Source: Mansonella perstans (Eukaryota > Nematoda > Chromadorea > Rhabditida > Onchocercidae). From it: a DNA stretch of 64,000 nucleotides. The notes below the pieces were generated by a model. The model was given only the letters and a program-made list of their open reading frames with translations, made no database searches and was not told where the DNA came from. The stretch lies in assembly GCA_037074765.1 (NCBI GenBank), contig JBAMDO010000143.1, positions 1 to 64,000 on the forward strand. Reading direction: 5' to 3'. The position numbers and the translations under genes were made by a program. Below, one piece after another: positions 1 through 39,060 of the stretch (positions are counted from its first letter, which is position 1; each line of letters begins with the position of its first letter).

Positions 1-62
1 AAAAATTCACAAAAACCATTATGAAAAAAAAATATGAGAAAATACCTAACCTATTTTTTTAA
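1..62 (+). CDS. Peptide-family copy 1, 3' end only
   Basis: Only the cationic tail of a peptide-family member lies inside the window; its leader and variable body are off the left edge. The frame reads KKFTKTIMKKK and then, because the A-run is nine long, continues through YEKIPNLFF to a TAA at 60-62. It shows that the array extends beyond the window. Confidence 0.6.
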   Translation, partial: KFTKTIMKKKYEKIPNLFF

Positions 63-720
63 ATTATGAAGACGATACCTAATCTATTATCGCTTTTGAT
101 AAATTTAAATAGTCATGATAACAAGCCGAATCACAAGGTTGCTCATTATCACGTAGTATCACACAGATAAGCCTTGACATCTGATTTAGCTGCGTTGATT
201 ATAATCATTGCTTATGGCCTAGAATTTATGCCACTATGCGTAATATTTTTAAGAATTTTAATAGTTTTCCGTAAGCATTGTCACACAATCTGCTGTTCGC
301 ATTAAATTTAATGAAAAAAGTTTAATTTTGTATTGTCTAATTCGTAAAAGAATAATTATATTGAGTTATATTTTTAAATATTGTGCTATAGGAATGCGAT
401 AGGAGCATAACAAAATTATAAACGATAACGTTGATTTGATTTTGACTTTTAGACAATGGTTAATATCATCTCCTCATCGTTCAACACCCCACTGCATATG
501 CGTCAGGACAACTGTCTTCATCAATATCGCTGTGCATTTTCAATCATTATGCCTTAATTCCAATGGATATTTTCATCAATATATATCATCTTAGACCATT
601 TTTAATTACATTAGATTGGATTATGTTTAATTGTATTGCTCTTCGATCACGTTTAGTTGTTTTCGATTAGTATAATATCAACAGACGTGTACGTAAGTAT
701 TGCTGTATTTAGATAACAGG
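63..720 (+). repeat. Conserved 3' block of the peptide unit
   Basis: This block follows every + strand peptide copy at high identity. It contains a possible exon-2 acceptor (GATTTAG ending at 189) followed by an open frame reading AYGLEFMP. Further down are a second acceptor-like site (GACTTTTAG) and the segment around the GACGTGTACGTAAG motif. No independent gene is supported. Confidence 0.6.
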
Positions 721-1678
721 ATAATAAATCACCGAGAATTCGCAGTTCTATCATTCATTATAGCCTTTGTGGCTTTGTGGCACTATTCCAAAGAATGGAG
801 CTCCATCGTGCTGTAATTTCTTTATCGAAGCAAATTTGGGGTATATTGATGAAATGATTTCGCTTCATTAATAGCTCCAAATCAATCCAGTTTAATATGG
901 TTCACTTTTTTCTCTAAAATTTAATCGTAAGTTTTACGTTTTAAACTTAATGATGCGTTATTAAATATATTTTCTTCATATTGTCTGTTTAATTTTTTGC
1001 CAAATAAATTTCTATCTCACAGGGAGACTATATTTTCGTACAATGAAATGCGCACTTTTATATATTATGCTGAACAATGATTTCATGCTTTTTGCTTTTA
1101 AAGATAATGCCGAAACTGTGTACAGTTAAAGTGTCACATATATAGAATATAATTCGCATCAATCATCAAATTCGTATTTCTACGGTCAAATTCTAATGGT
1201 TAAATTGAGATAGAGTTTATTTGGTAATTTGAGTTGTTAGAAACCGACGCATTTTTATTCTCTTATCTAAATACAATTATACTTACGTACACTTTTCTTA
1301 ATATCATACTAATTGAAAATAACTAAACGTGATACAGTACCACTACAATTAAACACAATCCAATTTAATGTAATTAAATATGATCTAAGATAATATATAT
1401 TAATGAAAATATAAAGGCTTATGATTGAAAATGCACAACGATGTTGAAGGTGATAGTTTCCTGATTCTTGACTGAAAATTAGCAATGATGCTGATAAGGG
1501 CATTTGTCCTGACTTACATGACAGTAGAACGTTGAACAATGAAGAGGTGATGTGAACTAACTATTTAATAGCCAAAATCAAATCAGTGTTACCATCCTGG
1601 TGTTATTGCAATAACATAACATTTACAAACAATATAAGTAACCTCTTACAAGTTAAACAATAGAAAGTAAATTTGTTG
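721..1678 (-). repeat. Diverged unit in reverse orientation, duplicated at 23807-24900
   Basis: Read on the - strand, this is a diverged version of the 3' block that follows the + strand peptide genes. It is nearly identical to 23807-24900, including the junction with the upstream + strand block, so both are products of one segmental duplication. The 76-codon open frame at 1309-1539 (-) matches the third frame of the + strand block, but the differences are mostly amino-acid-changing, so I do not call it a gene. Confidence 0.6.
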
Positions 1679-1970
1679 ATGTCCGACAAAAATTTGGTGC
1701 CCGAGGTGAGGTAACGATGTCGAGCAAGATTACACACAGTATTCAAACAGCAAAAACCAGGTTAGTCCCTCTCCAAGAAATAAATTCCCTGAGCTTGAAT
1801 CTCCGGATCCAAAAGCGTCACTAGAACAACAGGAAAACGTTTATGGAACGTTTATACAACGAGGAAAAAAGTACTCGCAGATAAAATCGATGGAGTTCAA
1901 TCATGCGTTGATTCACTTGATATGGCAAACGACAAGTGGTTCAATTACATTCAAACAATCATCGCAACGA
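1679..1970 (+). mobile_element. LTR-retrotransposon fragment: LTR end, PBS and gag start
   Basis: The fragment starts with the last bases of an LTR (GTCCGACA), a short spacer and a primer-binding site beginning TGGTGCCCGAGG at 1695. A gag-like start ATG follows at 1717, with a frame that later breaks. A partial frame near the end reads LADKIDGVQSCVDSLD-like sequence. The rest of the element is absent. It interrupts the diverged peptide copy that begins at 2086. A near-identical fragment sits at 24901-25192. Confidence 0.65.
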
Positions 1971-2086
1971 CATAGGAGATAAGGAGCGCAGAAGGCACAC
2001 CTGGTGGACTCTTTGAGAACAATAAATGATAAAAATAAGGAATAAAACAAATAAAACAAATTTTGGACTAGTAGCGACTTTGACAT
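1971..2086 (-). pseudogene. Diverged reverse-strand peptide copy m1, truncated by retroelement
   Basis: Starting at 2086 on the - strand, the frame begins MSKSLLVQ exactly like the + strand family, then continues as a diverged hydrophobic stretch (NLFYLFYS). The 3' half is cut by the PBS/gag fragment at 1679-1970. It lies head-to-head with the gene at 2805. Confidence 0.6.
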
Positions 2087-2804
2087 ATCTTAATGAGCTA
2101 TGGTTTCTGTCGAACGTTAGCATTTATGAAACCATTGTCAAATTTGCGTCATTTTTATGAATTCCTCTTTGATGATAGAATCGTCTAAATTGGAGAGATA
2201 AAAAAAGTTGCTTCAGAAAGTTACTCCTAATGCCTACTGCTACTTCTAGTATCTAATGCTACTCTCTATCTCTAAAATCGCCGAAACACTCTAAGTATTT
2301 TTTCAATAACAAAATGAAGGAATGAAGAAACTATTAATGGTTCATAACAAAATAAATTGCCCTAATTTTTAATACCTAAGCATCACTTCTCTCCACTTAT
2401 CCATCTTAACTCATTCTTTTATCATTGAATAAACAAAATCGAAAAAAAACAGGTTGCTGAAAGATCGAATTGTTTAACGCATTTACAATGCGAGAAAAAT
2501 TATATTCACTACTTCCGTTATCGAAGTATATAAAGCGCGATTTGTTTTGATATGAACCATTAATAGTTTTTCATTCTTTTTTGATTACTGAAAAAATAAT
2601 TGGAGTGTTTTGGTGATTTCAGAGATTTTATAGTAGCAGTAGGTACTAAGTATAGCGGTAGGTATTAGGAGTAACTTTCTGAAGCAAGCTTATTTCTCCA
2701 ATTCTGTTGGTTCTGTCATCAAAGAGGGATTCATAGATGACACCAATTTAAAAATGGATTCAAAAATGCTAACATTCAATAGAAACCACAGCTCATTTTA
2801 GAAT
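2087..2804. repeat. Head-to-head leader/promoter dyad
   Basis: The left arm (2087-2345) is the reverse complement, with divergence, of the right arm (about 2546-2804). Both contain the TTCTGAAGCAA, ATTGGAG and GGTTTCTRTCGAA segments that lead to the ATG of a peptide copy. The roughly 200-bp centre holds the TATA box. The same dyad recurs upstream of 9287, 21009, 26028 and 38809. A shared central promoter region firing both ways is an inference. Confidence 0.65.
2527..2535 (+). promoter_or_regulatory. TATA box of copy 2
   Basis: TATATAAAG, followed by CGCGATTTG, lies 278 bp before the ATG at 2805. The same nonamer and spacing recur in most copies of the array. Confidence 0.6.
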
Positions 2805-3029
2805 ATGTCGAAGTCGCTGTTAATCCAGATGTGGCGATATTTGTTATTGTTTCTTATTTTCATCATTCATTGTATGGACAACAATGCAGGAGCACCACCA
2901 ATGCCACCAAGGCCAGGAGCACAACCACAAGGACCAGTGGCACCACCACCAGAACCACGAATGCCACCAGTGAATGGTGGTAAGCTCTTGAAAAAATTCA
3001 CAAAAACCATTATGAAAAAAAAAATATGA
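2805..3029 (+). CDS. Hypervariable secreted peptide, copy 2 (74 aa)
   Basis: Residues 1-24 form a hydrophobic signal-peptide-like leader ending FIIHCM, of the W-R-Y subtype. Residues 25-58 are the variable body, rich in Pro, Ala and Gly (APPMPPRPG, VAPPPEPRMPP). Residues 59-74 are the constant tail GKLLKKFTKTIMKKKI, carrying seven Lys and able to form a cationic amphipathic helix. The ATG is three bases after a TTTTAG acceptor (AG at 2800-2801), whose TAG is an in-frame stop, so translation must start here. A GGTAAG donor falls at the body/tail boundary, so a spliced form lacking this tail is possible. The family is not recognised; an antimicrobial or effector role is inferred from layout only. 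Confidence 0.75.
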   Translation: MSKSLLIQMWRYLLLFLIFIIHCMDNNAGAPPMPPRPGAQPQGPVAPPPEPRMPPVNGGKLLKKFTKTIMKKKI

Positions 3030-4052
3030 GAAAATACCTAACCTATTTTTTTAAATTATGAAGATGATATCGAACCCATTATTGCTTTTGATAAATTTAA
3101 ATAGTCATGATAACAAGCCGAATCACAAGGCTGCTCACTATCACGTAGTATCACACAGATAAGCCTGGCATCTGTTTTAGCTGCGTTGATTATAATCATT
3201 ACTTATGGCCTAGAATTGATGCCACAATGCATAATATTTTTAAGAATTTTAATAGTTTTCCGTAAGCATTGTCGCACAATCTGCTGTTCGAATCAAATTA
3301 AATGAAAAAAGTTTTATTTTGTATTGTCTAATTCGTAAGAGAATAATTATATAGGGTTATATTTTTAAATATTGTCCTATGGGAATGCGATAGGAGCATA
3401 ATAAAATTATGAACGATAACGCTGATTTGATTTTGACTTTTAGATGGTTAATATCATCTCCTCATCGTTCAACACCCCACTGCATATGCGTCAGGACAAC
3501 TGTCTTCATCAATATCGCTGTGCATTTTCAGTCATTATGCCTTAATTCCAATCGATATTTTCATCAATATTTATCATCTTAGATTATTTTTAATTACATT
3601 AGATTGGATTATGTTTAATTGTATTGCTCTTCGATCAAGTTTAATTGTTTTCGATTAGTATGATATCAACAGACGTGTACGTAAGTATTGCTGTATTTAG
3701 ATATCAGGATAAAAATAGTAAAAATACGTCGGTTTCTAACAACGCAAATTACAAATGAACTCTCTCTGAATTTAACCATTAGAAATTGACCATTGATATA
3801 CGCATTTGATGATTAATGCGAATGTTCCATAGAGGTGACACTTTAACTGCACATAATTTCGGCATTATCTTTAGCAGCAAAAGGCATAAAATCATTGTTC
3901 AACATATGTACAGTCATTTCATTGCCCGAAAATGCGGTCAGGTAGAAATTTATATGGCAAAAAATTAATCAGGCAATGAAAAAAATGTATTTAATAACAC
4001 ATCAATCATTAAGGATGAAACGTAAAACTTACGATTCAGCTTTGAAGAAAAT
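3030..4052 (+). repeat. Conserved 3' block after copy 2
   Basis: This is the standard unit 3' block. A CTGTTTTAG acceptor near 3181 is followed in the phase of the upstream donor by an open frame (AALIIITYGLELMPQC, then RKHC and ICCS) ending at a TGA. A second acceptor-like GACTTTTAG follows near 3444. The block ends where the LTR foldback begins. Confidence 0.6.
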
Positions 4053-8444: not shown

Positions 8445-8570
8445 TTACCTGGCATAGGAGATAAGGAGGTGCAGGAGGCACACCTGGTGGAGCTCTTTGA
8501 GAACAATAAATGATAAAAATAAGGAATAAAACAAATAAAACAAATTTTGGACTAGTAGCGACTTTGACAT
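8445..8570 (-). pseudogene. Diverged reverse-strand peptide copy m2 (41-codon frame)
   Basis: The frame opens MSKSLLVQNLFY, is hydrophobic to about residue 24, and ends ISYAR before TAA. A one-base shift in the hydrophobic part moves the ancestral Pro-rich body (APPGVPPAPP) into another frame, so this copy no longer encodes a leader joined to a Pro-rich body. A CAG|GTAAAA donor-like site sits where the + strand copies have GGTAAG. The 41-codon frame is nevertheless also open in m3 and m5, so a shorter product cannot be excluded. Confidence 0.5.
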
Positions 8571-9286: not shown

Positions 9287-9532
9287 ATGTCGAAGTCGCT
9301 GTTAGTCCAGATGTGGCGATATTTGTTATTATTTCTTATTTTCATCATTCATTGTATGGATAACAATGCAGGACCACCACCAAGGCCAGCACCACGACAA
9401 CCAATGAATGGAGGGGGTGGAATGATGGGAATGATGGATATGATGAATGGTAAGCTCTTGAAAAAATTCACAAAAACCATTATGAAAAAAAAAAATGTGA
9501 GAAAATACCTAACCTATTTTTTTAAATTATGA
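9287..9532 (+). CDS. Hypervariable secreted peptide, copy 3 (81 aa)
   Basis: The leader is of the W-R-Y subtype. The 30-residue body is unusual within the family: after PPPRPAPRQP it becomes Gly/Met-rich (GGGGMMGMMDMMN). The tail GKLLKKFTKTIMKKK is followed by NVRKYLTYFFKL, because an 11-base A-run shifts the frame past the usual TGA. A TTTTAG acceptor lies three bases before the ATG and a GGTAAG donor at the body/tail boundary. Confidence 0.75.
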   Translation: MSKSLLVQMWRYLLLFLIFIIHCMDNNAGPPPRPAPRQPMNGGGGMMGMMDMMNGKLLKKFTKTIMKKKNVRKYLTYFFKL

Positions 9533-10520
9533 AGATGATATCGAACCCATTATTGCTTTTGATAAATTTAAATAGTCATGATAACAAGCCGAATCACAAG
9601 GTTGCTCATTATCACGTAGTATCACACAGATAAGCCTGGCATCTGTTTTAGCTGCGTTGATTATAATCATTGCTTATGGCCTAGAATTTATGCCACAATG
9701 CGTAATATTTTTAAGAATTTTAATAGTTTTCCGTAAGCATTGTCATACAATCTGCTGTTCCAAAAAAAAAAGTTTTATTCTATATTTTTAACTTGTAAGA
9801 GGATAATTATATTGGGTTATATTTGTAAATATTGTGCTATAGGAATGCGATAGGAGCATAACAAAATTATGAACGATAACGCTGATTTGATTTTGACTTT
9901 TAGGTGGTTAATATCATCTCCTCATCGTTCAACGCTCCACTGCATATGCATCAGGACAACTGTCTCCATCAACATCGCTGTGCATTTTTAGTCATTATGC
10001 CTTAATTCCAGTCGATATTTTCATCAATATATATCATCTTAGATCATTTTTAATTACATTAGATTGGATTATGTTTAATTGTATTGCTCTTCGATCACGT
10101 TTAGTTGTTTTCGATTAGTATGATATCAACAGACGTGTACGTAAGTATTGCTGTATTTAGATAGCAGGATAAAAATGGTAAAAATACGTCGGTTTCTAAC
10201 AATGCAAATTACAAATGAACTCTCTCTGAATTTAACCATTAGAAATCGACCATTGATATACGCATTTGATGATTAATGCGAATGTTCCATAGATGCGACA
10301 TTTTAACTGCACACAATTTCGGCATTATCTTTAGGAGCAAAAGGCATAAAATCATTGTTCAACATATGTACAGTCATTTCATTGCTCGAAAATGCGGTCC
10401 TCCAAAAGGTAGAAATTTATATGACAAAAAATTAATCAGGTAATGAAAAAAATGTATTTAATAACACATCATTAAGTATGAAACGTAAAATTTATGATTC
10501 AGCTTTGAAGAAAATACGGA
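9533..10520 (+). repeat. Conserved 3' block after copy 3
   Basis: The standard unit block. The candidate exon 2 frame reads AYGLEFMPQC, RKHC, ICCS and then KKKSFILYF to a stop, differing from other copies because a segment is deleted after ICCS. No separate gene is seen. Confidence 0.6.
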
Positions 10521-11232: not shown

Positions 11233-11406
11233 ATGTCGAAATCGCTATTAGTCCAGATGTGGCAATATTTGTTATTATTTCTTATTTTCATCATTCATTG
11301 TATGAATAACAATCCAGCAGCACCACCACCACCAGCAATGGCACCAATGGGTAATGGTAGTCTCTTGAAAAAATTCACAAAAACCATTATGGAAAAAAAA
11401 ATATGA
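11233..11406 (+). CDS. Hypervariable secreted peptide, copy 4 (57 aa)
   Basis: The leader is of the W-Q-Y subtype with a TTTCAG acceptor three bases before the ATG. The frame is open further upstream (to 11182), but trans-splicing at this acceptor would remove that part. The 17-residue body is NNNPAAPPPPAMAPMGN. The tail is GSLLKKFTKTIMEKKI: the usual GGTAAG donor has become GGTAGT, so this copy is the least likely to splice there and would make the tailed form. Confidence 0.75.
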   Translation: MSKSLLVQMWQYLLLFLIFIIHCMNNNPAAPPPPAMAPMGNGSLLKKFTKTIMEKKI

Positions 11407-12470
11407 GAAATCATCTAACCTATTTTTTTAAATTATGAAGATGTGACCTAATCTATTACTGCTTTTGATAAATTTAAATAGTCATGATAACAAGCCGAAT
11501 CACAAGGTTGCTCACTGTCACGTAGTATCACACAGATAAGCCTGGCATCTGTTTTAGCTGCGTTGATTATAATCACTACTTATGGCCTAGAATTTATGCA
11601 ACAATGCATAATATTTTTAAGAATTTTAATAGTTTTCTGTAAGCACTGTCACATAATCTGCTGTTCGAATCAAATTTAATGAAAAAAGTTTTATTTTGTA
11701 TTGTCTAATTTGTCAGAGGATAATTCTATTGGACTGTATTTGTAAATATTGTGGTATAGGAGCATAACAAAATTATGAACGATAACGCTTTGATTTTGAC
11801 TTTTAGGCGGTGGTTAATATCATCTCCTCATTGTTCAACGCTCAACTGCATATGCGTCAAGACAACTGTCTCCATCAACATCGCTGTGCATTTTCAGTCA
11901 TTATGCCTTAATTCCAATGGATATTTTCATCAATATATATCATCTTAGATCATTTTTAATTACATTAGATTGGATTATGTTTAATTGTATTGCTCTTCGA
12001 TCACGTTTAGTTGTTTTCGATTAGTATGATATCAACAGACGTGTACGTAAGTATTGCTGTATTTTGATATCAGGATAAAAATGGTAAAAATACGTCGGTT
12101 TCTAACAACGCAAATTACAAATGAACTCTCTCTGAATTTAACTATTAGAAATTGACCATTGATATACGCATTTGATGATTAGTGCGAATGTTCCATAGAG
12201 GTGACACTTTAACTGCACACAATTTCGGCATTATCTTTAGGAGCAAAAGGCATAAAATCATTGTTCAACATATGTACAGTCATTTCATTGCCCGAAAATG
12301 GGATCCTCCAAAATGTAGAAATTTATATGGTAAAAAATTAATCAGCAATGAAAAAAATGTATTTAATAACACATCATTAAGTATGAAACGTAAAACTTTC
12401 GATTCAGCTTTAAAGAAAATCGGAAATATTCATTCTTTTATCATTGAATAAACAAAAACGAAAAAAAACA
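11407..12470 (+). repeat. Conserved 3' block after copy 4
   Basis: The standard unit block. Candidate exon 2 reads TTYGLEFMQQC and ends soon after ICCSNQI. A longer spurious frame at 12182-12451 covers the conserved GCGAATGTTCCATAGAGG segment that is present in all units. Confidence 0.6.
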
Positions 12471-12812: not shown

Positions 12813-13022
12813 ATGTGGAAGTCGCTGTTGGTCCAAATGTGGCGATATTTGTTATTATTTCTTATTTTCATCATTCATTGTATGAATAGCAATCCAGGAG
12901 CACCACAACAACAAATGCCAAGAGCAGCACCAGCAGCAAATGCAGATATGCGACGAATGATGGATGGTGGTGGTAAGCTCTTGAAAAAATTCACAAAAAC
13001 TATTATGGAAAAAAAAATATGA
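12813..13022 (+). CDS. Hypervariable secreted peptide, copy 5 (69 aa)
   Basis: The leader starts MWKSLLVQMW, with Ser2 changed to Trp, and is otherwise of the W-R-Y subtype. The 29-residue body begins NSNPGAPQQQMPR and ends with a Met/Arg/Asp stretch. The tail is GKLLKKFTKTIMEKKI. It has a TTTTAG acceptor and a GGTAAG donor at the body end. Its closest relative is copy 9 (27622), which shares the first 13 body residues and then diverges. Confidence 0.75.
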   Translation: MWKSLLVQMWRYLLLFLIFIIHCMNSNPGAPQQQMPRAAPAANADMRRMMDGGGKLLKKFTKTIMEKKI

Positions 13023-13905
13023 GAAAATACCTAACCTATTTTTTTAAATTATGAAGACGATACCTAATCTATTATTCTTTCGATAAATTTAAATAGTCAT
13101 GATAACAAGCCGAATCACAAGGTTGCTCACTATCACGTAGTATCACACAGATAAGCCTGGCATCTTTTTTAGCTGCGTTGATTATAATCACTACTTATGG
13201 CCTAGAATTTATGCAACAATGCATAGTATTTTTAAGAATTTTAATAGTTTTCCGTAAGCATTGTCACACAATCTGTTGTCCGAATCAAATTTAATGAAAA
13301 AAGTTTTATTTTATAATGTCTAACTTGTAAGAGGATAATTATATTGGGTTATATTTTTAAATATTATGCTATAGGAGTGCCGATGAGAGCATAACAAAAT
13401 TATAAACGATAACGCTGATTTGATTTTGACTTTTACGCGCTGGTTAATATCATCTCCTTATCGTTCAACATTCCACTGCATATGCATCATCAGGACCTCT
13501 ATCAACATCGCTGTGCATTTTCAGTCATTATGCCTTAATTCCAATCGATATTTTCATCAATATATATCATCTTAGATCATTTTTAATTACATTAGATTGG
13601 ATTATATTTAATTGTATTGCTCTTCGATCACGTTTAGTTGTTTTCGATACTATGATATCAGCAGACGTGTACGTAAGCATTATTGTATTTAGATAACAGG
13701 ATAAAAATGGTAAAAATACGTCGGTTTCTAACACACAAATTATCAAATCCACAGATGTACGCATTTGATGATTAATGCGAATGTTCCATAGATGTGACAC
13801 TTTAACTGCACACAATTTCGGCATTATCTTTAGGAGCAAAAGGCATAAAATCATTGTTCAACATATGTACAGTCATTTCATTGCCCGAAAATGCGGTCCT
13901 CCACA
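13023..13905 (+). repeat. Conserved 3' block after copy 5
   Basis: The standard unit block up to the start of the TTTG tract. From about 13700 onward it belongs to a segmental duplication shared with 30200-34100. Confidence 0.6.
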
Positions 13906-16391: not shown

Positions 16392-16529
16392 ATGTCGAAA
16401 TCGCTACTAGTCCAGATGTGGCAACATTTGTTATTATTTCTTATTTTCATCATTCATTGTATGCGACCAATACGACCAGGTAAGCTCTTGAAAAAATTCA
16501 CAAAAACCATTATGAAAAAAAAAATATGA
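16392..16529 (+). CDS. Hypervariable secreted peptide, copy 6 (45 aa, shortest)
   Basis: The leader is of the W-Q-H subtype with a TTTCAG acceptor. The body is only RPIRP, followed directly by the full tail GKLLKKFTKTIMKKKI, so leader and tail alone may be enough for the family product. The candidate second exon is damaged here: its acceptor reads TTTTAAC instead of TTTTAG, and an in-frame TAG follows. This copy can therefore make only the tailed form. It is paralogous to copy 11 (33064) in a segmental duplication, yet the bodies differ. Confidence 0.7.
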   Translation: MSKSLLVQMWQHLLLFLIFIIHCMRPIRPGKLLKKFTKTIMKKKI

Positions 16530-18240
16530 GAAAATAACTAACCTATTTTTTTAAATTATGAAGACGATACCTAATCTATTATTCTTTCGATAAATTTAAA
16601 TAGTCATGATAACAAGCCGAATCACAAGGTTGCTCACTATCACGTAGTATCACACAGATAAGCCTGGCATCTGTTTTAACTGCGTTGATTATAATCACTA
16701 CTTATGGCCTAGAATTTATGCAATAGTGCATAATATTTTTAAGAATTTTAATAGTTTTCCGTAAGCATTGTCACACAATCTGTTGTCCGAATCAAATTTA
16801 ATGAAAAAAGTTTTATTTTGTATTGTCTAATTCGTAAAAGAATAATTATATTGAGTTATATTTTTAAATATTGTGCTATAGGAGACCAATGAGAGCATAA
16901 CAAAATTATAAACGATAACGCTGATTTGATTTTGACTTTTACGCGCTGGTTAATATCATCTCCTCATCGTTCAACGCCCCACTGCATATGCGTCAGGACA
17001 ACTGTCTCCATCAACATCGCTGTGCATTTTCAGTCATTATGCCTTAATTCCAATGGATATTTTCATCAATATATATCATCTTAGACCATTTTTAATTACA
17101 TTAGATTGGATTATGTTTAATTGTATTGCTCTTCGATCACGTTTAGTTGTTTTCGATTAGTATGATATTAACAGACGTGTACGTAAGTATTACTGTATTT
17201 AGATAGCAGGATAAAAATGGTAAAAATACGTCGGTTTCTAACAACGCAAATTACAAATGAACTCTCTCTGAATTTAACCATTAGAAATTGACCATTGATA
17301 TACGCATTTGATGATTAATGCGAATGTTCCATAGAGGTGACACTTTAACTGCACACAATTTCGGCATTATCTTTAGGAGCAAAAGGCATAAAATCATTGT
17401 TCAACATATGTACAGTCATTTCATGGCTTGAAAATGCGGTCCCCCATGAGTAGAAATTTGCACGGCAAAAAATTAGTCAGGCAATGGGAAAAATGCATTT
17501 AATAACACATCATTAAATATATATATGCATTTGATAATTGATGCAAATTATGTTCCAAAGATGTAACACTTTAACTGTACACAGTTTGAGCAAATCACTG
17601 TTCAACATATATATAAGTACTTATTTCACTGCCCGAAAACGCGGTGCCCCATAAGGTAGAAATTTATATGGCAAAAAATTAATGCAATGGAAAAAATATA
17701 TTTAATAATACATCATTAAGCTTAGATCTTAAAGCTTAGGTTCGATTTTAAGGAAAAAACGAACCATATTAAATTCTATTGATTTGGGATTATTAATTTA
17801 TGATTCACAATACTGAAAAACTACTGATCTCACTTTCCCATATAACGAAGTAATAAGGAAAGATTTTTAGCATTCACTGACGAAATTAATTCTTATTTTA
17901 TAAACTATTTTACTTTTTACTAAATAACAAAAGGATCTGGGAAGAATGATGGCACAGCTAATGTTATTTACTTGCACAATTAATCTAAACCCCACTACCT
18001 TTTTTACTGCAATCAATAAAGATGCTACTAGAATGAAATCTTCCAGCAATCGAATAAATGAATGATTAATAAAATAAGCTAAAAAATATACTTCTATCTA
18101 ATTGTTTAATATTACTGATAGTAAAGCTGATGATTTAAGTAATTTATGATTGAATTTTACGACAGCAGAAAAAATGAAATTCCTCTTGCAGCTATCTGCG
18201 TTTTAGCAGACTTTTGCAAACGATAGACAATTACAATAAA
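16530..18240 (+). repeat. 3' block after copy 6, plus older duplicate
   Basis: The standard block extends to about 17460. From 17520 a more diverged partial repeat of the same block follows (ATGTAACACTTTAACTGTACAC, then a GCGGTGCCCC segment). Bases 17760-18050 resemble the reverse-orientation block around 15060-15350. No gene is supported. Confidence 0.5.
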
Positions 18241-20171: not shown

Positions 20172-20297
20172 TTACCTGGCATAGGAGATAAGGAGGCGCA
20201 GAAGGCACACCTGATGGAGCTCTTTGAGAACAATAAATAATAAAAATAAGGAATAAAACAAATAAAACAAATTTTGGACTAGTAGCGACTTTGACAT
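20172..20297 (-). pseudogene. Diverged reverse-strand peptide copy m3
   Basis: Same 41-codon frame as m2, opening MSKSLLVQNLFY and ending before GCCAGGTAA, with several amino-acid changes. Downstream, the Pro-rich-frame reading stops early because of an added base, unlike m2. Confidence 0.5.
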
Positions 20298-21025: not shown

Positions 21026-22979
21026 TGTCGCGAAATTAGCGAATTATAAAATAAACCTAATCTTAATCGATGGGGAATGAATTCTATAAATGACAGCTAT
21101 CCCATCAATCAATTGGTTAACTTACATTCACTATGATTTTGATCCATTATTTTAATATCGTTAATTATTCCAACTTCTTACCCCTATCAACTGTCATCTC
21201 ACTACACTCATTATGATCTTTGGACCGTTGTAAGCTACACCTCATCTTCCTTTTCATTTACCAGCTGTCGCATCTTATACAAGCAGCATACAGGCAGCTG
21301 CAGCTAATATCTTATTAAACACAGCCACATGCCGAATTCCTTTGTTTGATGATAATGCTTACATGCAATATACAAGCAACATAAATGTTTTAATCATGTC
21401 CAGACTAATTGGCATGAATCCAAGGCTTTCTTCACTTCCGGTCGGAAGGAATCAAAGCTTCTCCTTATCAAATGTAACTCCTCTACTATCATCATGATCT
21501 TTAAACCTAATTAGTCTCCACCTCTTCTTCTCCTCATATATAAACTGTTTAAACCTTCAACATGGGTTAATACACTCAACAATTACGGACTGACTGGTAT
21601 CTACACCAGTTCCCCCTTTTTTACATCTACTTTTATTATATATTTTACTTCGCGTTTTGTGTAATTACTTCGCGTCTTGTGTATTACTCCGCGTTTCGTG
21701 TATTATCATTATAAATTAGTGTTTGTTATTAATAAAGGTTTAATTACCCAAGTTTGAGATCGTCACTGCGCATTCAATTCAATCCAACACGCTTACTCTA
21801 CCACAACTCATCATCACCTTCAACTCAACCCGTTCACCCTACCACAAATCGTCATTCAATTCAACTCAACCCGTTTACTCCAACACAATCCACTACATAT
21901 ACACAATTAAGTGTACCACCTACACAAGTCCTAAACAAATTTTAGGAAACACTAACACACAAGTTGACCACTCACAAAAACTTTCACAACAAATTGAAGT
22001 CTCAGTCTCATAATCTGAAGGTTGTGAGTTCACCTCACCTCGTGGCACCAATTTGTTGTGAAAGTTTTTGTGAGTGGTCAACTTGTGTGTTAGTGTTTCC
22101 TAAAATTTGTTTAGGACTTGTGTAGGTGGTACACTTAATTGTGTATATGTAGTGGATTGTGTTGGAGTAAACGGGTTGAGTTGAAGGTTATGATGAGTTG
22201 TGGTAGAGTAAGCGTGTTGGATTGAATTGAATGCGCAGTGACGATCTCAAACTTGGGTAATTAAACCTTTATTAATAACAAACACTAATTTATAATGATA
22301 ATACACGAAACGCGGAGTAATACACAAGACGCGAAGTAATTACACAAAACGCGAAGTAAAATATATAATAAAAGTAGATGTAAAAAAGGGGGGAACTGGT
22401 GTAGATACCAGTCAGTCCGTAATTGTTGAGTGTATTAACCCATGTTGAAGGTTTAAACAGTTTATATATGAGGAGAAGAAGAGGTGGAGACTAATTAGGT
22501 TTAAAGATCATGATGATAGTAGAGGAGTTACATTTGATAAGGAGAAGCTTTGATTCCTTCCGACCGGAAGTGAAGAAAGCCTTGGATTCATGCCAATTAG
22601 TCTGGACATGATTAAAACATTTATGTTGCTTGTATATTGCATGTAAGCATTATCATCAAACAAAGGAATTCGGCATGTGGCTGTGTTTAATAAGATATTA
22701 GCTGCAGCTGCCTGTATGCTGCTTGTATAAGATGCGACAGCTGGTAAATGAAAAGGAAGATGAGGTGTAGCTTACAACGGTCCAAAGATCATAATGAGTG
22801 TAGTGAGATGACAGTTGATAGGGGTAAGAAGTTGGAATAATTAACGATATTAAAATAATGGATCAAAATCATAGTGAATGTAAGTTAACCAATTGATTGA
22901 TGGGATAGCTGTCATTTATAGAATTCATTCCCCATCGATTAAGATTAGGTTTATTTTATAATTCGCTAATTTCGCGACA
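21026..22979. mobile_element. Inverted-LTR palindrome joined by a tRNA-Met fragment
   Basis: The element starts TGTCGCGAAATT and ends with its exact reverse complement. It is bounded by TG/CA and flanked by a 5-bp duplication, CTATT (21021-21025 and 22980-22984). The left arm is about 970 bp and the right arm about 930 bp. They are almost identical except for a 40-bp internal duplication in the left arm near 21800-21880. The left arm has an AATAAAGG signal near 21733. There is no gag or pol. The 54-bp centre resembles the 3' part of a tRNA-Met and in reverse serves as an extended primer-binding site. The simplest reading is two LTRs of one retrotransposon joined tail-to-tail through the tRNA primer. 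Confidence 0.8.
21996..22050 (+). other. 3' part of elongator tRNA-Met with CCA, between inverted LTRs
   Basis: The segment reads TCAGTCTCATAATCTGAAGG, then a GTGAG/CTCAC T-stem pair, and ends TGGCACCA. This matches the anticodon arm (CAT), variable region, T arm and acceptor end of an animal elongator tRNA-Met. Nuclear tRNA genes do not encode CCA, so it derives from a mature tRNA primer. The T loop appears two bases short at the position of m1A58, a known reverse-transcription stop or error site. It lacks the 5' half and is not a tRNA gene. Confidence 0.75.
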
Positions 22980-23168
22980 CTATTAGTCCAGATGTGGCAA
23001 CATTTGTTATTATTTCTTACTTTCATCATTCATTGTATGAATAACAATGCAGGACCACCACAACAACAAGTGCCAGGAGCACTACCACGAATGCCTGGTA
23101 AGCTCTTGAAAAAATTCACAAAAACCATTATGAAAAAAAATGAGAAAATACCTAACCTATTTTTTTGA

Positions 23169-25192: not shown

Positions 25193-25309
25193 CATAGGAG
25201 ATAAGGAGGCGCAGAAGGCACACCTGGTGGAGCTCTTTGAGAACAATAAATGATAAAAATAAGGAATAAAACAAATAAAACAAATTTTGGACTGGTAGCG
25301 ACCTGACAT
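25193..25309 (-). pseudogene. Diverged reverse-strand peptide copy m4, truncated
   Basis: The frame starts at 25309 with ATG and is cut by the PBS/gag fragment exactly as in m1. A base loss near the start (GACCTGACAT versus GACTTTGACAT) adds further damage. Confidence 0.5.
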
Positions 25310-25750
25310 ACTCTTAAGGGAGCTGTGGTTTCTGTCGAACGTTAGCATTTATGAAACCATTGTCAAATTTGCGTCATTTATGAATTCTTCTTTGATGATA
25401 GAATCATCTGAATTGGAGAGATAAAAAAAGTTGCTTCAGAAAGTTACTCCTAATGCCTACTGCTACTTCTAGTATCTAATGCTACTGTAACATCTCTAAA
25501 ATCGCCGAAACCCTCTAAATATTTCTTCAATAACAAAATGAAGGAATGAAGAAACTATTAATGGTTCATAACAAAATAAATTGCCCTAATTTTTAATACC
25601 TAAGCATCACTTCTCTCTACTTATCCATCTTAACTCATTCTTTTATCATTGAATAAACAAAATCGAAAAAAAACAGGTTGCTGAAAGATCGAATTGTTTA
25701 ACGCATTTACAATGCGGGAAAAATTATATTCACTACTTCCGTTATCGAAG

Positions 25751-26027: not shown

Positions 26028-26204
26028 ATGTCGAAATCGCTATTAGTCCAGATGTGGCAATATTTGTTATTTTTTATTATTTTCATCATTCACTGTATGA
26101 ATAACAATCCAGCAGCACCACCACGACCAGTAGTAATGCCACAAATGGATAATGGTAAGCTCTTGAAAAAATTCACAAAAACCATTATGAAAAAAAAAAT
26201 ATGA
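26028..26204 (+). CDS. Hypervariable secreted peptide, copy 8 (58 aa)
   Basis: W-Q-Y leader with FFIIFIIHCM, one substitution away from the family FLIFIIHCM. The TTTCAG acceptor is followed by AAC before the ATG. The 18-residue body is NNNPAAPPRPVVMPQMDN, closest to copy 4 at its start. The tail is GKLLKKFTKTIMKKKI and the GGTAAG donor is present. An upstream in-frame ATG at 25989 lies before the acceptor and is not used in my model. Confidence 0.75.
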   Translation: MSKSLLVQMWQYLLFFIIFIIHCMNNNPAAPPRPVVMPQMDNGKLLKKFTKTIMKKKI

Positions 26205-27240
26205 GAAATCATCTAACCTATTTTTTTAAATTATGAAGACGATACCTAATCTATTATTGCTTTTGATAAATTTAAATAGTCATGATAACAAGCGGAATCA
26301 CAAGGTTGCTCACTATCACGTAGTATCACACAGATAAGCCTGGCATCTGTTTTAGCTGCGTTGATTATAATCACTACTTATGGCCTAGAATTTATGCAAC
26401 AATGCATAATATTTTTAAGAATTTTAATAGTTTTCCGTAAGCACTGTCACACAATCTGCTGTTCGAATCGAATTTAATGAAAAAAGTTTTATTTTGTATT
26501 GTCTAATTTGTCAGAGGATAATTCTATTGGATTGTATTTGTAAATATTGTGGTATAGGAGCATAACAAAGTTATGAACGATAACGCTTTGATTTTGACTT
26601 TTAGGCGGTGGTTGATATCATCTCCTCATTGTTCAACGCTCAACTGCATACGCGTCAAGACAACTGTCTCCATCAACATCGCTGTGCATTTTCAGTCATT
26701 ATGCCTTAATTCCAATGGATATTTTCATCAATATATATCATCTTAGATCATTTTTAATTACATTAGATTGGATTATGTTTAATTGTATTGCTCTTCGATC
26801 ACGTTTAGTTGTTTACGATTAGTATGATATTAACAGACGTGTATGTAAGTATTGCTGTATTTAGATAACAGGATAAAAATGGTAAAAATATGTCGGTTTC
26901 TAACAACGCAAATTACAAATGAAATCTCTCTGAATTTAACTATTAGAAATTGACCATTGATTTACGCATTTGATGATTAATGCGAATGTTCCATAGATGC
27001 GACATTTTAACTACACACAATTTCGGCATTATCTTTAGGAGCAAAAGGCATAAAATCATTGTTCAACATATGTACAGTCATTTCATTGACCAAAAATGCG
27101 GTCCTCCAAAAGGTAGAAACTTATATGGCAAAAAATTAATCAGGCAATGAAAAAAATGTATTTAATAACACATCATTAACTATGAAGCGTAAAATTTACG
27201 ATTCAGCTTTGAAGAAAATACGGAAATATTCTTTTTTATC
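26205..27240 (+). repeat. Conserved 3' block after copy 8
   Basis: The standard unit block, closest to that of copy 4 (shared GGTATAGGAGCATAAC deletion near 26550). Exon-2 frame TTYGLEFMQQC. Confidence 0.6.
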
Positions 27241-27621: not shown

Positions 27622-27864
27622 ATGTCGAAGTTGCTGTTGGTCCAGATGTGGCGATATCTGTTATTATTTCTTATTTTCATCATTCATTGTATGAATAGCA
27701 ATCCAGGAGCACCACAACAACAAATGCCAAGAGTACCACAAGCAGCAGATGCAAATATGCCACGAATGATGGGTGATGGTGGTAAGCTCTTGAAAAAATC
27801 CACAAAAACTATTATGGAAAAAAAAAATATGAGAAAATACCTAACCTATTTTTCTAAATCATGA
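27622..27864 (+). CDS. Hypervariable secreted peptide, copy 9 (80 aa)
   Basis: The leader starts MSKLLLVQMW (Ser4 to Leu), subtype W-R-Y, with a TTTTAG acceptor. The 29-residue body shares NSNPGAPQQQMPR with copy 5 and then differs at many sites (VPQAADANMPRMMGDG). The tail has Phe to Ser (KKSTKTIMEKK), and the A-run shifts the frame into NMRKYLTYFSKS before the stop. Confidence 0.72.
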   Translation: MSKLLLVQMWRYLLLFLIFIIHCMNSNPGAPQQQMPRVPQAADANMPRMMGDGGKLLKKSTKTIMEKKNMRKYLTYFSKS

Positions 27865-28900
27865 AGACGATACCTAACCTATTATTGCTTTTGATAAATT
27901 CAAATAGTTATGATAACAATCCGAATCACAAGGCTGCTGACTATTACGTAGTATCACACAGATAAGCCTGGCATCTGTTTTAGCTGCGTTGATTATAATC
28001 ACTACTTATGGCCTAGAATTTATGCAACAATGCATAGTATTTTTAAGAATTTTAATAGTTTTCCGTAAGCATTGTCACACAATCTGCTGTTCGAATCAAA
28101 TTTAATGAAAAAAGTTTTATTTTATAATGTCTAACTTGTAAGAGGATAATTATATTGGGTTATATTTTTAAATATTATGCTATAGGAATGCCAATGGAGC
28201 ATAACAAAATTATGAACGATAACGCTGATTTGATTTTGACTTTTACGCGCTGGTTAATATCATCTCCTCATCGTTCAGCACTCCACTGCATATGCGTCAG
28301 GACAACTGTCTCCATCAACATCGCTGTGCATTTTCAGTCATTATGCCTTAATTCCAATGAATATTTTCATCAATATATATCATCTTAGATCATTTTTAAT
28401 TACATTAGATTGGATTATGTTTAATTGTATTGCTCTTCGATCATGTTTACTTGTTTTCGATTAGTATGATATCAACAGACGTGTACGTAAGCATTACTGT
28501 ATTTAGATATCAGGATAAAAATGGTAAAAATACGTCGGTTTCTAACAACGCAAATTACAAATGAAATCTCTCTGAATTTAACTATTAGAAATTGACCATT
28601 GATATACGCATTTGATGATTAATGCGAATTTTCCATAGAGGTGACACTTCAACTACACACAATTTCGGCATTATCTTTAGGAGCAAAAGGCATAAAATCA
28701 TTGTTCAACATATGTACAGTCATTTCATTGCTCGAAAATGCGGTCCCCCATAAGGTAGGAATTTATATGGCAAAAAATTAATCAGGCAATGGAAAAAATG
28801 TATTTAATAACACATCATTAAGTATGAAATGTAAAATTTACGATTCAGCTTTGAAGAAAATACGAAAATATTCATGCTTTTATCATTGAATAAACAAAAC
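27865..28900 (+). repeat. Conserved 3' block after copy 9
   Basis: The standard unit block. The frame 28155-28388 reads through the second acceptor-like site into RWLISSPHRSALHCICVR and shows the longest open version of this segment. Coding status is unproven. Confidence 0.55.
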
Positions 28901-29272: not shown

Positions 29273-29554
29273 ATGTCGAAGTCGCTGTTAGTCCAGATAT
29301 GGCGATATTTGTTATTATTTCTTATTTTCATCATTCATTGTATGGATAACAAGGCAGGAGCACCACCGATGATGCCACCAAGGCGAGAAGCACAACCACA
29401 AGTACCAGTGGCACCAGAACCAGCAGCGCCACCACAAGCGGCAATGATGCCAATGCCACCAGTGGATGATTATGGTAAGCTCTTGAAAAAATTCACAAAA
29501 ACCATTATAAAAAAAAAATATGAGAAAATATCTATCTATTTTTTTAAATTATGA
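29273..29554 (+). CDS. Hypervariable secreted peptide, copy 10 (93 aa, longest)
   Basis: Leader subtype W-R-Y with Met9 changed to Ile, and a TTTTAG acceptor. The 43-residue body begins DNKAGAPPMMPPR and continues as Pro/Ala/Met repeats (VPVAPEPAAPPQAAMMPMPP). It is an expanded relative of the copy 2 body. The tail is GKLLKKFTKTIIKKK, followed by YEKISIYFFKL because the A-run is short. The GGTAAG donor is present. Confidence 0.75.
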   Translation: MSKSLLVQIWRYLLLFLIFIIHCMDNKAGAPPMMPPRREAQPQVPVAPEPAAPPQAAMMPMPPVDDYGKLLKKFTKTIIKKKYEKISIYFFKL

Positions 29555-30400
29555 AGAAGATATCGAACCCATTATTGCTTTTGATAAATTTAAATAGCCA
29601 TGATAACAAGCCGAATCACAAGGTTGCTCACCTTCACGTAGTATAACACAGATAAGCCTGGCATCTGTTTTAGCTGCATTAATTATAATCACTACTTATA
29701 GCCTAGAATTTATGCAACAATGCATAATATTTTCAAGAATTTTAATAGTTTTCCGTAAGCACTGTCACACAATCTGCTGTTCGAATCAATTTTAATGAAA
29801 AAAGTTTTATTTTATGTTATCTAATTCGTAAGAGGACAATTATATTGGTTATATTTGTAAATAATGTGCTATAGGAATGCGATAGGAGCATAACAAAATT
29901 ATGAACGATAACACTGATTTGATTTTGACTTTTAGATGGTTAATATCATCTCCTCATCGTTCAACGCTCCACTGCATATGCGTCAGGAAAACTGTCTCCA
30001 TCAACATCGCTGTGCATTTTCAGTCATTATGCCTTAGTTCCAATGGATATTTTCATCAATATATATTATTTTAGATCATTTTTAATTACATTACATTGGA
30101 TTATGTTTAATTGTATTGCTCTTCGATCAGTTTAGTTGTTTTCGATTAGTATGATATCAGCAGACGTGTACGTAAGCATTACTGTATTTAGATAACAGGA
30201 TAAAAATGGTAAAAATACGTCGGTTTCTAACACACAGGTTATCAGATCCACAGATATACGCATTTGATGATTAGTGCGAATGTTCCATAGAGGTGACACT
30301 TTTAACTGCACACAATTTCGGCATTATCTTTAAGAGGAAAAGGCATAAAATCATTGTTCAACATATGTACAGTGATTTCATTGCCCGAAAATGCGGTCCT
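29555..30400 (+). repeat. Conserved 3' block after copy 10
   Basis: The standard unit block with exon-2 frame TTYSLEFMQQC. From about 30200 it is part of the segmental duplication shared with 13.7-17.4 kb. Confidence 0.6.
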
Positions 30401-33063: not shown

Positions 33064-33210
33064 ATGTCGAAATCGCTACTAGTCCAGATGTGGCAACATT
33101 TGTTATTATTTCTTATTTTCATCATTCATTGTATGCGACCAATGCCACCAGGGAATAATGGTAAGCTCTTGAGAAAATTCACAAAAACCATTATGAAAAA
33201 AAAAATATGA
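33064..33210 (+). CDS. Hypervariable secreted peptide, copy 11 (48 aa)
   Basis: W-Q-H leader and TTTCAG acceptor, as in copy 6. The eight-residue body is RPMPPGNN against RPIRP in copy 6, although promoter, leader and flanks are almost identical. The tail is GKLLRKFTKTIMKKKI. Unlike copy 6, the exon-2 acceptor (CTGTTTTAG) is intact. Confidence 0.72.
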   Translation: MSKSLLVQMWQHLLLFLIFIIHCMRPMPPGNNGKLLRKFTKTIMKKKI

Positions 33211-34080
33211 GAAAATACCTAACCTATTTTTTTAAATTATGAAGACGATACCTAATCTATTATTCTTCCGATAAATTTAAATAGTCATGATAACAAGCCT
33301 GCTCAAGGTTGCTCACTATCACGTAGTATCACACAGATAAGCCTGGCATCTGTTTTAGCTGCGTTGATTATAATCACTACTTATGGCCTAGAATTTATGC
33401 AACAGTGCATAATATTTTTAAGAATTTTAATAGTTTTCCGTAAGCATTGTCACACAATCTGTTGTTCGAATCAAATTTAATGAAAAAAGTTTTATTTTGT
33501 ATTGTCTAATTCGTAAAAGAATAATTATATTGAGTTATATTTTTAAATATTGTGCTATAGGAATGCGATAGGAGCATAACAAAATTATGAACGACAACGC
33601 TGATTTGATTTTGACTTTTAGGTGGTTAATATCATCTCCTCATCGTTCAACACTCCACTGCATATGCATTAGGACAACTGCCTCCATCAACTTCGCTGTG
33701 CATTTTCAGTCATTATGCCTTAATTCCAATGGATATTTTCATCAATATATATCATCTTAGATCATTTTTAATTACATTAGATTGGATTATGTTTAATTGT
33801 ATTGCTCTTCGATCAGTTTAGTTGTTTTCGATTAGTATGATATCAGCAGACGTGTACGTAAGCGTTACTGTATTTAGATATCAGGATAAAAATGGTAAAA
33901 ATACGTCGATTTCTAACACACAAGTTATCAAATCCACAGATATACGCATTTGATGATTAGTGCGAATGTTCCATAGAGGTGAAACTTTAACTGCACACAA
34001 TTTCGGCATTATCTTTAAGAGCAAAAGGCATAAAATCATTGTTCAACATATGTACAGTCATTTCATTGCCCGAAAATGCG
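33211..34080 (+). repeat. Conserved 3' block after copy 11
   Basis: The standard unit block with a short deletion near 33298 (AAGCCTGCTCAAGG). No independent gene is seen. Confidence 0.6.
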
Positions 34081-35121: not shown

Positions 35122-35307
35122 ATGTCGAAATCGCTATTAGTCCAGATGTGGCAACATTTATTATTATTTCTTATTTTCATCATTCATTGTATGAATAACG
35201 ATGCAAGACCACGACCTCCAGGGCCTAGTAAGCTCTTGAAAAAATTCACAAAACCCATTATGAAAAAAAAATATGAGAAAATCGTAACCTATTTTTTTAA
35301 ATTATGA
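35122..35307 (+). CDS. Hypervariable secreted peptide, copy 12 (61 aa)
   Basis: W-Q-H leader and TTTCAG acceptor. The body is NNDARPRPPGP. The tail starts Ser instead of Gly (SKLLKKFTKPIMKKK), and a Pro inside the helix would weaken it. A short A-run gives YEKIVTYFFKL before the stop. The donor reads AGTAAGC. The frame is open for 54 codons upstream, but that part lies before the acceptor. In the 3' block the exon-2 frame stops earlier than in other copies. Confidence 0.7.
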   Translation: MSKSLLVQMWQHLLLFLIFIIHCMNNDARPRPPGPSKLLKKFTKPIMKKKYEKIVTYFFKL

Positions 35308-36130
35308 AGACGATACCTAACCTATTATTGCTTTTGATAAATTTAAATAGTCATGATAACAAGCCGAATCACAAGGATGCTCACTATCACGTAGTATCAT
35401 ACAAATAAGCCTTGGCATCTAATTTAGCTGCGTTGATTATAATCATTACTTATGGCCTAGAATTGATGCCACAATGCGTTCTATTTTTAAGAATTTTAAT
35501 AGTTTTCCATTAGCATTGCCATCAAATCTGCTGTTCGCATTAAATTTAATGAAAAAAGTTTTATTTTATATTGTCTAATTTGTCAGAGGATAATTCTATT
35601 GGATCATATTTGTAAATATTGTGGTATAGGAGCATAACAAAATTATGGACGATAACGCTGATTTGATTTTGGCTATTAGGCGGTTGTTTATATCATCTCA
35701 TCATCGTTCAACGCTCCACTGTCATATGCGTCAGGACAACTGTCTCCATCAACATCGTTGTTCATTCCCAGTCAGTAAGCCTTTATTTTCTTGAATATTT
35801 TCATCAGTATGAAAATGTATTTAGATAAGAGAATAAAAATGGTAAAAATACGTCGGTTTCTAACACACAAATTATCAAATCCACAGATATACGCATTTGA
35901 TGATTAATGCGAATGTTCCATAGATGTGACACTTTAACTGCACAAAATTTTAGCATTATCTTTAAGAGCAAAAGGCATAAAATCATCGTTCAACAGATGT
36001 GCAGTCATTATATCGCCCGAAAATTCGGTCCCCCATAAGGTAGAAATTTATATGGCAAGAAATTAATCAGGCAGTGGAAAAAATGTATTTAATAACACAT
36101 CATTAAGTATGAAACGTAAAACTTACGATT
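35308..36130 (+). repeat. Conserved 3' block after copy 12
   Basis: A more diverged unit block (CTAATTTAG acceptor at about 35419). A large deletion between about 35780 and 35820 removes the GATTGGATTATG segment. Confidence 0.55.
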
Positions 36131-37470: not shown

Positions 37471-37524
37471 AGACAATATTAATCTAAGAAATTCCTTCAA
37501 AAAACTGACATTCTTAATATTTGT

Positions 37525-37972
37525 TCAAGCTATCAACATAAAAAAATGTTGTGGGTGTGGCGAGATTCTAAAAAATTCTGGATCATCACAAGCAACAAGG
37601 AGAGAGTTGTGTTGTGAAATGTTAAGAAAGAAAAATGAAATTTGATGTAAAAAAGAGTTTTCTCGTTTCAAACTGTTTTGATTACTAATTAGCAGTGTGA
37701 GTATTGACATTCCATGCATGTGACATTTGCTGAATTTACCCGCAGGGAGGTGACAATTTTTAGGCAGTGTGACATAAGTTCTAGTTTATGTACAATGGTT
37801 ATAATCGATACAACTGAATTTTTTGCTAAGGCTTATCTGTATAGCATTACAGAGAGCAGCCTTGTGATTCCGCTTGCTATCACTACTATTTAAATTTATC
37901 AATAGCAGTAATAGGTCAGTTATCGTCTTTATAACTTTTTTTTTTCTGAATTTTACCATTCTGTGAATTTTT
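37525..37972 (-). repeat. 3' block of reverse copy m5
   Basis: Same arrangement as 8046-8444: a diverged unit read on the - strand, with the LTLLISNQNSL frame partly open (37525-37719). Confidence 0.5.
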
Positions 37973-38089
37973 TTACCTGGCATAGGAGATAAGGAGGTGC
38001 AGGAGGCAAACCTGGTGGAGCTCTTTGAGAACAATAAATGATAAAAATAAGGAATAAAACAAATTTTGGACTAGTAGCGACTTTGACAT
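37973..38089 (-). pseudogene. Diverged reverse-strand peptide copy m5
   Basis: A 38-codon frame like m2 and m3 but with a 9-bp in-frame deletion in the hydrophobic part (NLFYSLFL). It lies head-to-head with copy 13. Confidence 0.5.
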
Positions 38090-38530
38090 ACTCTTAAATA
38101 AGCTGTGGTTTCTGTCGAACGTTAGCATTTATGAAACCATTGTCAAATTTGCGTCATTTATGAATTCCTCTTTGACGATAGAATCATCTGAATTGGAGAG
38201 ATAAAAAAAGTTGCTCCAGAAAGTTACTCCTAATGCTTACTACTACTTCTAGTATTTAATGCTACTGTAACATCTCTAAAATCGCCGAAACATTCTAAGT
38301 ATTTCTTCAATAACAAAATGAAGGAATGAAGAAACTATTAATGGTTCATAACAAAATAAATTGCCCTAATTTTTAATACCTAAGCATCACTTCTCTCCAC
38401 TTATCCATCTTAACTTATTCTTTTATCATTGAATAAACAAAATCGAAAAAAAACAGGTTGCTGAAAGATCGAATTGTTTAACGCATTTACAATGCGAGAA
38501 AAATTATATTCACTACTTCCGTTATCGAAG

Positions 38531-38539
38531 TATATAAAG
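38531..38539 (+). promoter_or_regulatory. TATA box of copy 13
   Basis: TATATAAAG followed by CGCGATTTG, 278 bp before the ATG at 38809. The inverted leader of m5 lies on the other side of the dyad (38090-38360). Confidence 0.6.
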
Positions 38540-38808
38540 CGCGATTTGTTTTGATATGAACCATTAATAGTTTTTCATTCTTTTTTGATTACTGAAAAAG
38601 TAATTGGAGTGTTTTGGTGATTCCAGAGATTTTATAGTAGCAATAGATACTAAGTGTAGCGGTAGGTATTAGGAGCAACTTTCTGAAACAAGTTTATTTC
38701 TCCAATTCTGTTGGTTCTGTCATCAAAGTGGAATTAATAAATGGCACCGATTTAAAAATGGATTCATAAATGCTAACATTCGATAGAAACCACAGCTCAT
38801 TTTAGAAT

Positions 38809-39060
38809 ATGTGGAAGTCGCTGTTAGTCCACATGTGGCGATATTTGTTATTATTTCTTATTTTCATCATTCATTGTATGGATAATGCAGGAGCACCACA
38901 ACAACAAATGCCAAGAGCACCACCACAACCAGGAAGGCGACCGAATGGTGGTAATGACAATGCACCCCCTCTGCCTGGTAAGCTCTTGAGAAAATTCACA
39001 AAAACCATTATGAAAAAAAAAAGTATGAGAAAATACCTAACCTATCTTTTTAAATTATGA
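38809..39060 (+). CDS. Hypervariable secreted peptide, copy 13 (83 aa)
   Basis: The leader starts MWKSLLVHMW (Ser2 to Trp, Gln8 to His), subtype W-R-Y, with a TTTTAG acceptor. The 32-residue body begins DNAGAPQQQMPRAPPQPG and turns Asn/Gly-rich before PPLP. The tail is GKLLRKFTKTIMKKK, followed by SMRKYLTYLFKL after an A-run shift. This is the last copy of the array on the right. Confidence 0.75.
   Translation: MWKSLLVHMWRYLLLFLIFIIHCMDNAGAPQQQMPRAPPQPGRRPNGGNDNAPPLPGKLLRKFTKTIMKKKSMRKYLTYLFKL

Follow-up and report, generated by a model that had tools for sequence, protein, structure and literature searches.

Gene Array at the Start of the Contig

The window analyzed here comprises the first 64,000 nucleotides of contig JBAMDO010000143.1 (C143) of the nematode Mansonella perstans (assembly GCA_037074765.1; 75.7 Mb in 539 contigs). 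Positions 1 to 39,060 contain an array of small genes that share a signal-peptide-like leader. A preliminary description of this DNA had presented them as single-exon secreted peptides with a constant leader, a hypervariable body, and a constant cationic tail. In this report, we propose that each gene consists of two exons separated by a conserved intron, and that the apparent tail is most likely the beginning of that intron.

Twelve plus-strand copies of the leader (of the type MSKSLLVQMWRYLLLFLIFIIHCM) were found in this segment, and 11 of these begin with ATG. Exon 1, which is composed of the leader and the body, was assigned on the + strand to positions 2805..2979, 9287..9449, 11233..11356, 12813..12972, 16392..16479, 26028..26154, 27622..27781, 29273..29474 (the longest body of the window), 33064..33160, 35122..35227, and 38809..38977. 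The remaining plus-strand leader, at 22977..23097 (+), is the only one in the window without an ATG; it also lacks the usual 5′ flank but keeps the leader, the body, and the donor. Thirteen plus-strand copies had been counted previously, and 12 of these do carry the leader; the thirteenth (1..539, +) is interrupted within its intron by the start of the contig and is represented only from the intron onward.

Five minus-strand leader copies, all degenerate, were absent from the preliminary description. They are located at 2019..2086, 8503..8570, 20230..20297, 25243..25311, and 38031..38090 (lower ends approximate). The first stands head-to-head with copy 2805 at a distance of 719 nt, and those at 8503, 25243, and 38031 diverge from copies 9287, 26028, and 38809 at distances of 717, 717, and 719 nt, respectively. 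Divergent pairs are common, with a spacing of 717–719 nt and a degenerate minus-strand partner in four of the five window cases. In contigs C410, C118, and C90, the spacing between divergent neighbors was 1207–1326 nt in seven of seven cases.

The leader was found at no fewer than 72 places, which are spread over 14 contigs; 17 lie within the window and at least 55, likewise missing from the earlier account, outside of it. This count combines the minus-strand copies with searches using three family peptides, which give lower bounds, and includes weak and broken matches. The copies are clustered in tandem and inverted arrangement, and many lie close to contig ends, so that some of the leader-bearing contigs may adjoin in the real chromosome. 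The copy with its leader at 6865 (− strand) of contig C521 is nearly identical to window copy 9287, and its body is out of frame; the two may represent alleles, a recent duplication, or an assembly error.

Probable Splice Donor and Start of the Intron

The body ends at the hexanucleotide GTAAGC in 11 of the 12 window copies and at GTAGTC in copy 11233. The preceding base is G, as in copies 2805 and 11233, with the exception of copy 35122, where it is A. In other subfamilies, GTAAG or GTAAAA stands at the end of the body in many copies. Using these two patterns, a donor was located in 51 of the 62 copies examined, and 43 of these donors are in phase 1. Of the 38 copies that begin with ATG and have an uninterrupted exon 1, 37 are in phase 1, and seven of the eight out-of-phase donors belong to copies that contain stop codons or lack the ATG. 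The donor is in phase 1 in all 12 window copies, in keeping with the prior observation that the lengths of the bodies differ by multiples of three.

The sequence downstream of the donor does not behave as coding DNA. The intron of copy 9287, for example, was placed at 9450..9842 (+), with its phase tested on sister clusters, and its first ∼45 nt are the segment formerly described as a constant cationic tail. Across 17 copies, the length of the A-run in this segment is distributed over the three residues modulo 3 as 7/5/5, and the read-through stop therefore lands in three frames. The distinct substitutions in the same copies number eight nonsynonymous to one synonymous, against a neutral expectation of 0.82 nonsynonymous, and variation by codon position is nearly flat (0.049, 0.042, and 0.042).

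A single-exon gene, in which leader, variable body, and cationic tail form one antimicrobial peptide or one effector like the HYP proteins of potato cyst nematodes, would explain why the frame runs open from the ATG into the tail in all 11 complete window copies, a fact of the preliminary description that we reproduced. Lysine-rich read-throughs occur in other subfamilies too, and 13 copies differ slightly less from one another over the initial 43 nt of the intron (0.040) than over its full length (0.072), which under the two-exon structure must be ascribed to the splice site or to chance. Opposed to these points are the donor at the junction, the A-run that ignores the reading frame, the neutral-like and positionally flat substitutions, and a second exon in matching phase (described below). 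The single-exon cationic peptide was rejected by the donor, frame, and codon tests, and we regard it as very improbable. On the strength of the same four features, the segment taken for a cationic tail most likely represents the noncoding start of an intron that is removed by splicing. The protein model proposed at first was plausible and is probably wrong, having taken a conserved intron start for a conserved cationic domain.

Predicted Second Exon

Twenty-seven gene models were selected by hand, excluding copies with stop codons or without a clear donor or acceptor. In the models kept, exon 2 begins approximately 340–450 nt downstream of the donor. Its acceptor is TATAG, TATCAG, or TTTAG in most cases and is preceded by a conserved stretch like TTTGTAAATATTATGCTA. 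In most copies of the cluster on contig C169, a brief NAGM that hardly varies closes exon 1, and it is exon 2 that bears peptides such as GPAQQPPPPANNAGRNMPANMEQQ or GPPQPPLRQAADAAQQ. Some copies on C410, C118, and C90 vary in both exons.

The codon usage of exon 2 was determined for 14 of the 27 models (from C169, C410, C118, and C90), with the first AG after the conserved motif taken as the acceptor and the frame predicted from the phase of exon 1. Adenine occupies 72% of third codon positions and 15% and 17% of the other two, and the third position has the highest adenine content in 14 of the 14 genes tested. The periodicity of exon 2 in the frame predicted by splicing therefore fits the phase predicted from exon 1. 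The hexamer GGTGGA is repeated in exon 2 of two C118 copies (6082- and 1996-), which suggests that slippage contributes to variation in length.

Within the window, exon 2 (+ strand throughout) was predicted at 9843..9853, 29875..29885, 33561..33571, and 39376..39386 for copies 9287, 29273, 33064, and 38809, respectively, each of which would add GMR and a stop codon. The corresponding exons of copies 11233 (11760..11767) and 26028 (26558..26565) encode GA, those of 12813 (13375..13394) and 16392 (16882..16892) encode GVPMRA and GDQ, and that of 35122 (35630..35637) encodes RA, all followed by a stop codon. In copy 2805, the usual acceptor AG reads GG, and the next AG gives a predicted exon 2 at 3394..3401 (GA and stop); in the conservation comparison, the aligned GG was taken as the acceptor of this copy. 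These exons contribute 2–6 residues, junction codon counted. The exception is copy 27622, whose predicted exon 2 (28186..28388) is open for ∼66 residues, unlike the remaining window copies.

Several observations weigh against this gene structure. No donor was recognized by the patterns used in 11 of the 62 copies, and phase 2 was found in one copy whose exon 1 is open. Copy 11233 is without GTAAG and copy 2805 without the usual acceptor AG. The higher similarity of the intron's initial 43 nt belongs here as well. Most second exons in the window are this short and were placed by alignment to the subfamilies in which exon 2 is long. Only 30% of the exon-2 indels in the window group have a length divisible by three; in three other groups, the values were 50%, 69%, and 69%. 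Taking all of this into account, we remain confident that these are two-exon genes with a signal-like leader and a conserved intron, as judged from the DNA. This confidence extends to the gene structure and excludes the role of the product.

Upstream Region and Possible trans-Splicing

Alignment of 26 upstream regions revealed a TATA-like element, CGAAGTATATAAAGCG, which precedes the ATG by ∼285 columns. In 51 of 62 copies, A(A/G)T ATG is immediately preceded by the hexamer TTTCAG (42 copies) or TTTTAG (9 copies). This acceptor-like sequence, three bases ahead of the ATG, is possibly the trans-splice site for the spliced leader SL1. The genome carries a tandem array of SL1 RNA genes with units of ∼307 bp (C518:7301-22977), which makes trans-splicing at the leader copies plausible. 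Genes for SL1 RNA and 5S rRNA are often linked in nematodes; a check of 3.1 kb of the SL1 repeats showed no match to 5S rRNA. An in-frame extension of the protein upstream of the ATG (MLTFDRNHSSFQN...) was considered and rejected, since 6 of the 11 ATG-bearing copies have an in-frame TAG that would terminate it. The other five read CAG at this site, which fits a splice acceptor.

Rates of Change and Possible Selection

Thirteen copies of C143 and C521 were compared in all pairs, and the resulting figures are consequently not independent of one another. The pairwise differences were determined to be 0.086 for the 5′ flank, 0.070 for the leader, 0.177 for the exon-1 body, 0.072 for the intron, and 0.112 for the region after the stop codon. 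Indels per 100 sites amount to 7.4 in the exon-1 body (68% multiples of three) versus 0.8 in the intron (7% multiples of three). The noncoding DNA is thus more alike than the bodies, as had been noted from the start, and change is concentrated in the body, largely as in-frame indels. In groups C169, C410a, and C410b (six, four, and four copies, respectively), it is exon 2 that differs more than the intron, the leader, and the flanks; in C169, the exon-1 body is short and conserved.

Substitution rates were determined with three pairs of copies chosen for segmental duplication inside the window (11233/26028, 12813/27622, and 16392/33064). The bodies have 18 substitutions in 153 sites versus 34 in 1204 for the introns (odds ratio 4.6, rate ratio 4.2, p = 4.7e-6). 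When the bodies are compared with the entire duplicated blocks (193 mismatches in 5365), p = 1.8e-5. All 15 of the 15 changed body codons alter the residue. By the Nei–Gojobori method, the proportions of nonsynonymous (pN) and synonymous (pS) differences in the body are 0.144 and 0.033, respectively, and the silent rate is near the intron rate of 0.028. In the leader, the order is reversed, with pN 0.027 versus pS 0.076 in five pairs, and by this comparison the leader is under purifying selection.

The nonsynonymous excess in the body, taken alone, is borderline, with a binomial p of 0.053 for three pairs and 0.097 for five, which tempers the case for diversifying selection. One of the five pairs, 2805 versus C521:15557, has a body that changes more slowly than its intron. 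The 5′ flanks of pair 11233/26028 differ by 0.197, which exceeds the difference in the flanking intron. In addition, gene conversion of the flanks could exaggerate the contrast in rate between body and flank.

The same genes might instead encode structural or reproductive secreted peptides rich in Pro, Gln, Gly, and Met, such as those of the eggshell, sheath, cuticle, or seminal fluid; we consider this possible but doubtful, and hold the same view of its companion proposal that the variation arises mainly from triplet slippage under weak constraint. The low-complexity composition, the few dominant codons with mostly A in the third position, the freely varying length, and the GGTGGA repeats of the two C118 copies are all in accord with such peptides, and the composition is reminiscent of filarial sheath proteins. 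They would account less well for the substitutions in the body, which are raised along with the indels, and for the excess of nonsynonymous over silent change, borderline as it is.

It is also conceivable, if improbable, that the array is a duplicated cluster of dispensable genes in near-neutral decay, with nothing more than rapid mutation behind the variation of their low-complexity bodies. Stop codons or a lost ATG have plainly disrupted a considerable share of the copies, 24 of the 62 have either no donor by the patterns used or no intact open exon 1, and the divergent minus-strand copies of the window are degenerate. Decay of this kind is difficult to reconcile with a phase kept in 37 of 38 open copies, with a leader under purifying selection, and with splice signals and a TATA-like box that are retained across subfamilies.

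Predicted Peptides and Proposed Model

The leader has a polar start followed by a hydrophobic core. The predicted mature peptides are 8–49 residues long in 26 of the 27 models and 97 residues in one, and their net charge (K + R − D − E) ranges from −1 to +4, with +3 or +4 in only two models. The proposal that these are antimicrobial peptides is not borne out by these charges; with the tail assigned to the intron, its cationic form loses its basis.

In the proposed model, each copy would be a two-exon gene with a signal-peptide-like leader, preceded by a conserved 5′ region whose TATA-like box lies ∼285 nt upstream of the ATG. Exon 1 would specify the constant leader together with a portion of the mature peptide. 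A conserved phase-1 intron of ∼340–450 nt would follow, and exon 2 would complete the mature peptide and provide its stop codon. The product would be short, of low complexity, and near neutral, and would diversify through amino-acid-changing substitutions and the gain or loss of triplets. Recent duplication, perhaps aided by gene conversion, would keep the leader, the intron, and the untranslated regions (UTRs) similar among copies.

What such peptides would do is a separate question. Our leading, though tentative, interpretation is that they form a secreted repertoire, probably disordered in structure and shaped by diversifying selection at an interface with the host or with microbes, and we rank the structural or reproductive role after it. 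The combination of a signal-like leader, a short low-complexity mature peptide, numerous clustered paralogues, and change focused on the mature part is what points to a diversifying repertoire. This interpretation builds on expression, trans-splicing, secretion, and a site of action that we infer, from a gene structure, a copy number, and a pattern of change that are read in the DNA. The signal-like leader is the one feature that suggests secretion, and this counts against a firmer assignment. If the genes are expressed at the host interface, they would provide a compact set of paralogues for testing how such peptides diversify.

Comparison with Known Systems

No Pfam family was matched at E ≤ 0.1 by the three exon-1 proteins scanned, and no protein relative was found at E ≤ 0.01 among 310 candidates, in collections that are not known to be rich in nematode proteins. 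A search for GST_N gave no match. A viral origin was rejected, with no relative among viral contigs for the one query used. No description of this peptide family was found in searches of open-licence papers.

The closest described pattern that we found is that of the Hessian fly SSSGP-1 genes, and the likeness appears to be one of layout only and not of sequence kinship. SSSGP-1 is a tandem and inverted cluster of genes for small secreted salivary gland proteins in which the promoter, UTRs, signal-peptide region, and intron are conserved and the mature region is super-diversified; positive selection together with concerted homogenization was proposed (PMC2955719). Both systems have clustered tandem and inverted copies, and in both, the intron, UTRs, and signal-peptide region are more conserved than the mature region (PMC2955719). 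They differ in that the first or only intron of SSSGP-1 either interrupts the signal-peptide region or marks its boundary (PMC2955719), whereas the intron here falls inside the variable mature region. The short mature parts of the nematode peptides, 8–49 residues in nearly all models, are a second difference.

An SSSGP-type system that evolved independently in nematodes, with variability confined to the mature coding sequence on either side of a conserved intron, is a possibility that we hold to be rather unlikely. Its variable block would reside chiefly in exon 1 for one cluster and chiefly in exon 2 for another, which we judge no more probable. A similarly low likelihood is given to its remaining part, that a locus-specific process or selection alters residues and triplets while the flanks are homogenized.

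The HYP effectors of potato cyst nematodes, to which the layout had been likened, are described as occupying single-gene loci, and their many alleles have a central hypervariable domain composed of ordered motifs (PMC11228951). As in that account, a hypervariable part is embedded in the otherwise constant gene of a nematode protein (PMC11228951). The comparison fails in other respects: the copies here are paralogues in a multigene family, an ordered set of motifs was not seen by eye, and, with the C-terminal constant part being most likely intronic, there is one constant end rather than constant domains on two sides.

The genes also resemble a more general type. Conotoxin-type precursors and families of secreted antimicrobial peptides combine a conserved signal peptide and a fast-changing mature peptide with gene duplication, and a signal-like leader, a fast-changing mature peptide, and gene duplication are likewise found here. 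Unlike those families, the predicted peptides examined have no constant cysteine framework and, once the intron is removed, no constant cationic segment.

Other Features of the Contig and Genome

Downstream of the array, the − strand of the window between 42,300 and 59,000 probably contains exons of a gene similar to the SWI/SNF component BAF250/Osa. One of the five open reading frames tested in this region, at 43308-43595 (− strand), matched the Pfam domain BAF250_C; how far the gene reaches was guessed from Pro/Gln-rich open reading frames. Elsewhere in the genome, which its SL1 RNA genes mark as nematode-like, a lysyl-tRNA synthetase exon matches PDB 5hgq, from the filaria Loa loa, at 52 of 55 residues; this protein is too conserved to decide on a filarial placement, which by these data would be a guess. 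Fragments similar to COX1, many of them with stop codons, were found in nuclear contigs C25, C98, C85, and others (20 matches). These fragments are possibly mitochondrial or endosymbiont DNA that was transferred to the nucleus.

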